Shown here: piece by piece, positions 47,310 to 48,927 of the stretch
Layout of the letters: each line of letters starts with the position of its first letter
Numbering within the stretch: the first letter of the stretch is position 1
Origin: an uncultured Dehalococcoidia bacterium
GTDB taxonomy: Bacteria; Chloroflexota; Dehalococcoidia; Lucifugimonadales; UBA1127
DNA: 64,000 nucleotides
Assembly (NCBI GenBank): GCA_951812285.1
Contig: OX638292.1
Coordinates: 1,097,008-1,161,007, forward strand
Direction of reading: 5' to 3'
Program-made: the position numbers and the translations under genes
Notes under the pieces: generated by a model
The model's input: only the letters and a program-made list of their open reading frames with translations
Database searches by the model: none
What the model was told of the DNA's origin: nothing

Positions 47310-47339
47310 TGACACCCCGCAAACCCCGACCCTAGAATG
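47310..47339 (+). promoter_or_regulatory. Promoter of tRNA-Gly
   Basis: Consensus TTGACA (47310-47315), 18 bases, TAGAAT (47334-47339). Transcription would begin a few bases before the tRNA. Confidence 0.75.
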
Positions 47340-47349
47340 AGAATCCATC

Positions 47350-47421
47350 GCGGGCGTAGCTCAGTGGTAGAGCCCTTGCTTCCCAAGCAAGTTGTCGTGG
47401 GTTCGACTCCCATCGCCCGCT
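47350..47421 (+). tRNA. tRNA-Gly (CCC)
   Basis: The acceptor GCGGGCG/CGCCCGC, anticodon stem CTTGC/GCAAG and loop TTCCCAA (anticodon CCC, Gly GGG codon) all fit. The D arm is GCTC/GAGC with an AGTGGTA loop. The discriminator is T; CCA is not encoded. It lies 57 bases after gcvPB. Confidence 0.95.
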
Positions 47422-47450
47422 CCACCTTAGAAAAGCTCGTGCATGGCACA

Positions 47451-47482
47451 AAAACCCCGCACATTCGTGCGGGGTTTTCATT
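47451..47482. terminator. Bidirectional intrinsic terminator
   Basis: AAAACCCCGCAC (47451-47462) pairs with GTGCGGGGTTTT (47467-47478) around ATTC. The T-run ends tRNA-Gly transcripts on the plus strand, and the A-run lets the same hairpin end cysH transcripts on the minus strand. Confidence 0.88.
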
Positions 47483-47504
47483 TATGCGGAATGTAAGCCT
47501 GCTC

Positions 47505-48293
47505 CTACCCCCCGGGCGCGAGATTCTTGAGGATGCTCAGAAAACCCGGCTTCTTCTCCACGACCGGCGCCTCGAAGTGCAGGCCGCACTCCGTCTTGTC
47601 GAAGTCGGCCCAACGGCCGGCCCTTGGGTCCTCGCCGATCTGCACGGGGCGCGTGCAGTGCGTGCAGCCGAGGCTCGGGTAGCCCTGGTCGTTGAGCGGG
47701 TTGTAGGGCACATCGTGCTCGGCGAGGTAGGCGCGCGTCTGCGTCTCGTCCCACGCCGCGAGGGCATTCACCTTCACCAGCCCGAACTTGGCGTCCCACT
47801 CCACGATGGCCACTTCCTTGCGCGTCGACGACTGGTCGCGGCGGATGCCCGTGATCCATGCGTCGAAGCTCTCGAGCGCGCGGGCCGTCGGCTCCACCTT
47901 GCGCAGGTCGCAGCACAGGTTCGGGTCGCGGGACCAGAGGGCGTCGCCGTACTGCGCGGCTTGCTCGAGCGGCGTCAGCGCCGACTTGAACGCCAGCGGC
48001 TCGATGCCGTACCGCTCGGCGACAAGGTCACGGAGGGCGTACGTCTCCGGGAAAAGGAAGTCCGTGTCCGCGTAGAAGACAGGGACCGAGCGGTCCAGCT
48101 TGAGGGTCATATCGAGCAGCGCCATGCCGCTCACACCGCCGAAGCTACATGCCAGTGTGACCTTGCCGGGGAATTGCTCCAGCGCCCACGCCAGGATCTC
48201 CTCCGGCGACGCGGCCTCCAGCCGCTTGTTGGCGGCCTCAAGCTCCTCATCGGTCCACTGTCTCTTCTGCGGCTCCAAGGTCAGATTCTGCAA
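47505..48293 (-). CDS. cysH: Phosphoadenylyl-/adenylyl-sulfate reductase
   Basis: A 262-residue assimilatory enzyme that reduces activated sulfate to sulfite on the way to cysteine. CSFGGVSGMALLDM is the nucleotide-binding loop. CCDLRKVEP and the later GCTHCTRPV supply the CC...CxxC set that binds a 4Fe-4S cluster, typical of enzymes using adenylyl sulfate (APS). ECGLHF near the C-terminus holds the catalytic Cys. TTG 48293 is the start, with AGGAG eight bases upstream. It is preceded by a polycysteine leader peptide and a terminator. Confidence 0.93.
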   Translation of the reverse strand: MQNLTLEPQKRQWTDEELEAANKRLEAASPEEILAWALEQFPGKVTLACSFGGVSGMALLDMTLKLDRSVPVFYADTDFLFPETYALRDLVAERYGIEPLAFKSALTPLEQAAQYGDALWSRDPNLCCDLRKVEPTARALESFDAWITGIRRDQSSTRKEVAIVEWDAKFGLVKVNALAAWDETQTRAYLAEHDVPYNPLNDQGYPSLGCTHCTRPVQIGEDPRAGRWADFDKTECGLHFEAPVVEKKPGFLSILKNLAPGG

Positions 48294-48328
48294 GTGTCCT
48301 TCTCCTCTTACTCCGTGGTGCGATGCAC

Positions 48329-48364
48329 AAAAAAATCGCCCTAGCTCATCCGCCGGGCGATTGC
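48329..48364 (-). terminator. Attenuator terminator in the cysH leader
   Basis: On the minus strand ATCGCCC (48361-48355) pairs with GGGCGAT (48341-48335), followed by seven T (48335-48329). It lies 36 bases before the cysH start. The 5' arm and loop overlap a segment complementary to the leader-peptide sequence. Confidence 0.85.
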
Positions 48365-48392
48365 GTGGTCTCTGCGTGCGTTCTTCGTAGTC

Positions 48393-48464
48393 CTAGCCGC
48401 TCAGACCCTCCATCCCGGCGGAAGCGGGCATACAACAGCAACAACACACGCAGCTGTTCGTCAC
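48393..48464 (-). CDS. Polycysteine leader peptide of cysH (23 residues)
   Basis: From GTG 48464 the minus strand encodes MTNSCVCCCCCMPASAGMEG and ends LSG-stop at 48393. It has five consecutive Cys codons (48446-48432) plus one earlier, six in 23 residues. Four of the five run codons are TGT, whereas cysH itself uses TGC at its CC pair. A second in-frame GTG at 48449 could also be the start. No strong ribosome-binding site is seen. The composition and the terminator downstream argue for a ribosome-stalling sensor of cysteinyl-tRNA. Confidence 0.75.
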   Translation of the reverse strand: MTNSCVCCCCCMPASAGMEGLSG

Positions 48465-48489
48465 TATCGCTATCTGCCGGTTGCGGGAC

Positions 48490-48519
48490 ATAATGCTATT
48501 GATCCTCCTGACTTGTGAA
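48490..48519 (-). promoter_or_regulatory. Candidate promoter of the cysH leader
   Basis: TTCACA (48519-48514), 18 bases, CATTAT (48495-48490) on the minus strand. The start of transcription would be near 48483, about 19 bases before the leader GTG. Confidence 0.4.
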
Positions 48520-48927
48520 GAAGCATACAAACTCGATCAAGGTCTGTCAACACTCAATTCCGAATACCAAGAATCCTTGCGGCCGCTTCCGCGCGCGCGG
48601 ATAATGGCCTCGCGATTGAAGGAGATGCGTTCGATGCTTGCAGTGGTCCAGCGGCACAAGCTCGGCGGCGATGAGCATGTGCTGCCTGTCCTACTCGAAG
48701 CCTATCCCGTCGACACCGTCGGCCAGCTTCATTACTTTCTCGTATTCTGGTGCCAGGCCGGCCGGGAGGCGATGACTGCCGGCATGGGCGAGGAGCTCGT
48801 CGGCGACATGCTCGCCCTGCTCACCGAGTACGGCATCGACCCCGACCGCTGCCGCCTCGAGGAGTCGGACGGCGACGAGGATCCCAGCATTGGCCCGCCG
48901 CCAGACTGGTTCAACCGCAAGGACTAA
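48493..48927 (+). CDS. Hypothetical protein
   Basis: A 144-residue protein, mostly helical, that I do not recognise. It begins MLLILLTCEEAYKLDQ and has the acidic C-terminal stretch LEESDGDEDPSIGPPPDWF. Codon use in the second half is typical of the genome. TTG 48481 or ATG 48493 could be the start, and no ribosome-binding site decides. It is divergent from cysH and convergent with the JAMM protease gene. Confidence 0.55.
   Translation: MLLILLTCEEAYKLDQGLSTLNSEYQESLRPLPRARIMASRLKEMRSMLAVVQRHKLGGDEHVLPVLLEAYPVDTVGQLHYFLVFWCQAGREAMTAGMGEELVGDMLALLTEYGIDPDRCRLEESDGDEDPSIGPPPDWFNRKD

Follow-up and report, generated by a model that had tools for sequence, protein, structure and literature searches.

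Polycysteine leader ORFs are said to have been described in Mycobacterium by Canestrari in 2020 (doi 10.1111/mmi.14498). In Actinobacteria, cysteine leaders preceding cys genes lack conserved terminators (PMC1262725), and the mycobacterial polycysteine leaders, which respond to cysteine, have been described as regulating translation (PMC9031893). In Rhodobacterales, a tandem-Cys leader followed by an intrinsic terminator, the uORFC-8-2 motif, has been predicted upstream of cysS (PMC8632094). More generally, leader-peptide systems were known only from Proteobacteria and Actinobacteria before a survey published in 2010 added Firmicutes (PMC2965389). A literature search, with most subscription papers outside its coverage, retrieved no cysteine attenuator described for Chloroflexota, in line with a preliminary description of the present locus, according to which no polycysteine leader is known to have been reported in this phylum.

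The locus lies in a stretch of 64,000 nucleotides (hereafter, the window), corresponding to positions 1097008-1161007 of C1, the single contig of genome G000 (2.86 Mb). The nearest named relatives of its cysH are from MAGs labelled Chloroflexota and Dehalococcoidia, in accordance with the phylum given in the preliminary description. The product of this gene makes the sulfur precursor of cysteine, which suits control by cysteine. As judged from its sequence features, the 5' leader of cysH is very probably a ribosome-mediated transcription attenuator sensing charged tRNA-Cys.

Anatomy of the cysH leader

The preliminary description had reported a Cys run, a stop codon, a terminator and complementary segments, all of which were recovered at the same positions when the sequence was re-read (Table 1). 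The leader ORF indeed ends at 48393 (TAG, 48395-48393) and contains five consecutive Cys codons (TGT TGT TGC TGT TGT, 48446-48432), which are part of a longer CVCCCCC segment. Its proposed length of 23 codons did not hold: the ORF likely has 32 codons, since a promoter match and an AGGAGG precede ATG 48491, whereas the 23-codon start is an internal GTG without Shine-Dalgarno sequence. The AGGAGG is also found in a close relative (L003). From the position of the promoter match, transcription would start at about 48515, so that about 24 nt, the AGGAGG among them, would precede the ATG and the ORF would not be leaderless.

Table 1. Features of the cysH leader region, in window coordinates.
Feature	Position	Strand	Remarks
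Sigma-70-type promoter match, TTGACA-17-TATGCT	48522..48550	-	10/12 match; shuffling expects 0.1 per region
Shine-Dalgarno-like AGGAGG for leader ORF	48504..48509	-	12 nt from ATG, longer than typical
Predicted leader peptide ORF, MSRNRQIAIVTNSCVCCCCCMPASAGMEGLSG*	48393..48491	-	32 codons, ATG 48491
Cys codon run, TGC GTG TGT TGT TGC TGT TGT (CVCCCCC)	48432..48452	-	Candidate sensor
Antiterminator 5' arm, GCCCGCTTCCGCCGGG	48414..48429	-	Directly 3' of Cys codons; partner 48357-48338
Candidate protector arm, CGCACGCAG	48372..48380	-	Partner is the start of the Cys run, 48453-48445 (pairing 1)
Intrinsic terminator hairpin, AATCGCCCGGCGGATGAGCTAGGGCGATT	48334..48362	-	-16.3 kcal/mol; conserved in all same-genus loci
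Terminator U-tract, TTTTTTT (U7)	48329..48335	-	First two Ts overlap stem end
cysH, phosphoadenylyl-sulfate reductase (putative regulated gene)	47505..48293	-	NF002537, E=1.7e-79, 267 bits, cut-off 154

The intrinsic terminator reported just before cysH was confirmed, the stem arms (AATCGCCCGGC...GCTAGGGCGATT) being followed by Ts. Located between the leader ORF and the structural gene, this hairpin is conserved throughout the genus and in the majority of families with a leader, and its 5' arm and loop double as the 3' arm of an antiterminator. The start codon of cysH is TTG, with GAGGAGAAGGA upstream. Search with the Rfam covariance models revealed no family at gathering score at the locus, and only one sub-threshold chance match nearby, within cysH.

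Collectively, these elements suggest the following mechanism. After transcription initiation, RNA polymerase would be followed by a ribosome translating the leader. When cysteine is short, the ribosome would stall within CVCCCCC, at codons that are mostly TGT, leaving the downstream GCCCGCTTCCGCCGGG free to pair with the terminator 5' arm and loop, and cysH would be transcribed. When cysteine is sufficient, the ribosome would run through the Cys codons and either cover GCCCGCTTCCGCCGGG or let the RNA refold, possibly through pairing 1. With this arm covered or otherwise paired, the terminator would form and transcription would end before cysH.

Regarding the genomic setting, a tRNA-Gly (CCC) is encoded just downstream of cysH on the plus strand (47350-47424), and translation across it yields a spurious long ORF (47337-48344). 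Far from cysH, near 2496490-2498280 of the contig (L157), cysC is followed by sat; inspection by eye and by scan found no Cys leader at this cysC-sat operon. A covariance model of the leader had no other full-length strong match in G000.

Recurrence of the leader among relatives

A survey for cysH gave 47 carriers among 117 relatives, 189 among 393 genomes of the class and 105 among 301 genomes of the phylum. Upstream regions were then read at 53 loci within the order, at 81 further loci elsewhere in the class and at 64 elsewhere in the phylum. A scripted detector, requiring a start codon, a Cys motif and a stop codon followed by a hairpin of <= -10 kcal/mol at a T-run, retrieved with its strict motif 18 of the 53 cysH upstream regions of the order, none of the 53 reverse strands and none of 265 dinucleotide shuffles. 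With the loose motif, which includes the CxC type, 26 of 53 regions were positive, against one of 53 reverse strands and one of 265 dinucleotide shuffles. Outside the order, positives amounted to 1/81 with the strict motif (family f47) and 3/81 with the loose one in the rest of the class, and to 2/64 in the rest of the phylum (family f133). In total, leaders carrying a CxC, CxCC or CCC motif were assigned to 32 loci from 13 families; since their leaders have no motif other than the CxC type, ten of these loci were included by visual inspection, and the strict count is independent of them. About half of the cysH loci of the order are devoid of the element and, among those read, many closely follow an upstream gene.

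A lack of Cys run or terminator in close relatives had been put forward as an observation that would refute the attenuator. In fact, all five genomes of the genus that were examined carry both, as do leaders in 12 other families, 11 of them from the same order. Within the genus (L001-L004), the Cys run and the MPASAG segment of the leader peptide are conserved. The arrangement recurs in so many relatives that it appears to be a genuine gene switch of the classical type.

This recurrence bears on the possibility that a Cys-codon run stands by chance next to an unrelated terminator ending an upstream transcript. Taken alone, the DNA pattern of the Cys run (TGYNNNTGYTGYTGYTGY) is no rarity in G000, with 6 sites versus 5 for a reversed-pattern control, and it was rejected as evidence by itself, as it performs no better than this control; the evidence for the run comes from its position and conservation, not from its rarity. 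Coincidence is contradicted both by the presence of the arrangement upstream of cysH in 13 families, the controls giving zero or close to zero, and by the cognate antiterminator pairing across families described below. Furthermore, the leader region is preceded by a divergent ORF (plus strand) and, therefore, no upstream transcript needs ending at the terminator. Such a chance origin is scarcely credible.

It could also be proposed that the Cys-rich peptide is itself functional, for example as a small metal- or thiol-binding protein, with the terminator ending its own transcript. Its high cysteine density, with 6 of 32 residues being cysteine in a CVCCCCC context, is what this proposal would expect, but the peptides are little alike across families apart from the Cys motif. 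The features that recur are rather codon choice and RNA complementarity, with a position tied to cysH, which makes a role of the peptide itself highly improbable. As to codon choice, the preference for TGT claimed for the leader is real: leader Cys codons comprise 81 TGT and 37 TGC (69% TGT), versus 38 TGT and 186 TGC (17%) in the ORFs of the window. With a single Cys anticodon, TGT has to be decoded through wobble, which may sharpen stalling.

Several variants of the arrangement were encountered. In the loci L015, L016, L025 and L029, the start codon of the leader ORF lies 7-9 nt after a -10-like hexamer, a spacing which suggests that these ORFs are leaderless or nearly so. In another genome of the genus (G002), the native cysH (L228, contig G002:C46, leader match at 1162-1286) is an in-frame internal-deletion remnant of about 60 codons. 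This site retains the Cys leader and terminator; the leader-terminator pairing is down to 6 bp and -13.2 kcal/mol, versus -19 to -24 kcal/mol, and the terminator stem is intact. The same genome also has a divergent cysH at another site (L018), preceded by a CCCC leader and terminator of its own. This single case is what would be expected if selection on the antiterminator depended on cysH.

In another class of the phylum, family f133 (L176-L180, L186-L188) has leaders of 8-9 Cys codons before cysH, e.g., GCTCCCCDCTCACIRGVVV. Being mostly without U-tract, these leaders are possibly a translational or Rho-type variant. In family f145 (L181, L182, L183 and L185), a SAM-I riboswitch (RF00162, 79-85 bits) and a terminator directly precede cysH. 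We tentatively consider, with somewhat more doubt than confidence, that cysteine-leader control of cysH is old and recurrent in Chloroflexota, being of the terminator type in one order of Dehalococcoidia, taking the form of a mostly U-tract-less polycysteine leader in a family of another class, and having given way to SAM-I riboswitch control in a third group. If true, this phylum would show several sensing systems on one gene.

Predicted antiterminator, candidate protector stem and modelled ribosome positions

The exact complementarity between TCCGCCGGG (48422-48414) and CCCGGCGGA (48357-48349), from which an antiterminator had been proposed, was verified, and a 9-nt exact complement arises in only 8 of 1000 mononucleotide shuffles of the leader tail. 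Its length had been underestimated, since the pairing involves 16 nt of the leader and uses both terminator arms. The duplex formed by GCCCGCTTCCGCCGGG and its partner reaches -26.7 kcal/mol, while the terminator alone amounts to -16.3 kcal/mol, and this pairing is the minimum-free-energy fold of the window leader.

The specificity of this pairing was assessed by a permutation test on the 32 leader-bearing loci of the 13 families, using one locus per family. The segment of 45 nt following the Cys codons pairs better with the terminator 5' arm of its own locus than with the arms from other families (z ~ -4, p at most 0.004 in all resamplings), in contrast to a control segment of the same length taken upstream of the Cys run (z -0.14). 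Against dinucleotide shuffles, the antiterminator pairing gave a family-mean z of -1.27 (s.e. 0.26, 13 families). There is little antiterminator signal in four families (f3, f16, f30 and f6). The arm sequences vary by family (e.g., CCGCCGGG, GGGGUUCG, GGGGCGG) and complementarity is maintained, which amounts to covariation at the family level. Within the genus (L001-L004), 15-16 of 16 antiterminator pairs are retained, a count which adds little because nearly all pairs are invariant. The logic initially proposed, in which stalling on the Cys codons would lead to antitermination, is thus supported, as it fits the conserved pairing of the post-Cys segment with the terminator 5' arm.

A dispersed palindrome, CCCGGCNTCCGCCGGGATGG, similar to 48428-48410 of the window, resembles the antiterminator arm. 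With at most one mismatch, 72 copies occur in G000, 19 in G004, one in G001 and none in G002 and G003. A recent insertion of this palindrome as the source of the arm was rejected as unlikely, because the arm is also present in members of the genus without palindrome copies.

The cognate pairing also bears on whether the polycysteine leader acts at translation or through Rho, as in mycobacterial cys operons, with the hairpin being secondary. Such a mode of action would be consistent with the published actinobacterial cases without terminators (PMC1262725), with the M. smegmatis case, described as affecting translation of downstream genes (PMC9031893), and with the mostly U-tract-less leaders of 8-9 Cys codons of family f133. 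In the lineage of the window, however, the hairpin has a U7 tract, is conserved and has a 5' arm that specifically matches the leader, which makes this possibility improbable.

The third pairing expected for an attenuator is less clear. The two segments proposed for pairing 1, CTGCGTGTG and CGCACGCAG, are present, and the start of the Cys run pairs well with its partner in L001-L003, all from one genus. As a candidate protector, this pairing is less marked beyond these loci: L004 lacks two outer pairs and retains seven weak ones, two of them through double-sided changes, and no significant cognate signal emerges when all families are taken together (z -0.8, p ~0.2), with strong cases in several of them. 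For a protector hairpin formed locally, 3' of the Cys run, the signal was similarly weak (family-mean z -0.41, s.e. 0.22).

The effect of the ribosome was modelled in L001-L004. Placed at the first Cys codon, it brings the terminator probability to ~0 and, at the last Cys codon, to ~0.94 (L004: 0.44). With the ribosome at the stop codon, values of 0.33, 0.91, 0.96 and 0.22 were obtained, the first being that of the window's sequence; in this position, with a footprint assumed to end at ~48412, the ribosome may leave the antiterminator arm just uncovered. Only in the genus of the window does equilibrium folding under ribosome masks clearly separate stalled from released states. In most other families, it favours the terminator in most or all ribosome positions and, therefore, the switch in those families would have to be kinetic. 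Masking on truncated transcripts was set aside, because its outcome is skewed by how much RNA is masked.

Comparison with known systems

If correct, this assignment would add Chloroflexota to the groups with leader-peptide transcription attenuation, and sulfate reduction in these mostly uncultured bacteria is predicted to be tuned to cysteine via the ribosome. The leaders, which are short and testable, are supplied from many families. With the classical trp, his, leu and ilv attenuators of Proteobacteria and Actinobacteria, the locus shares a leader ORF in which codons for the pathway product abound, an antiterminator and a terminator sharing an arm, and an adjoining structural gene. It differs from them in that the amino acid is cysteine, the gene cysH and the phylum Chloroflexota, with no clear conservation of the third (protector) stem.

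As is predicted for the window leader, the SAM-I riboswitch (RF00162) of family f145 controls cysH with a terminator, but it senses S-adenosylmethionine, involves no leader peptide and is absent from the window locus. The uORFC-8-2 motif (PMC8632094) also has tandem Cys codons followed by an intrinsic terminator, and the same logic has been proposed. It differs in the gene, the cysteinyl-tRNA synthetase gene cysS, in belonging to another phylum and in having two Cys codons, whereas here a long run precedes cysH in Chloroflexota.

The actinobacterial polycysteine leaders (PMC1262725) share with the present ones a short uORF with contiguous Cys codons, located before sulfur-assimilation genes and, as judged by the distance from -10 to ATG, several of the Chloroflexota leaders look leaderless or nearly so, like their actinobacterial counterparts. 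While the actinobacterial cases have no conserved terminator and have been described as translational or possibly Rho-dependent, an intrinsic terminator is found here together with a matching antiterminator. The locus would be a cysteine attenuator of the classical kind, equipped with an intrinsic terminator and acting on a sulfate-assimilation gene, in contrast to the published actinobacterial cases without such a terminator.
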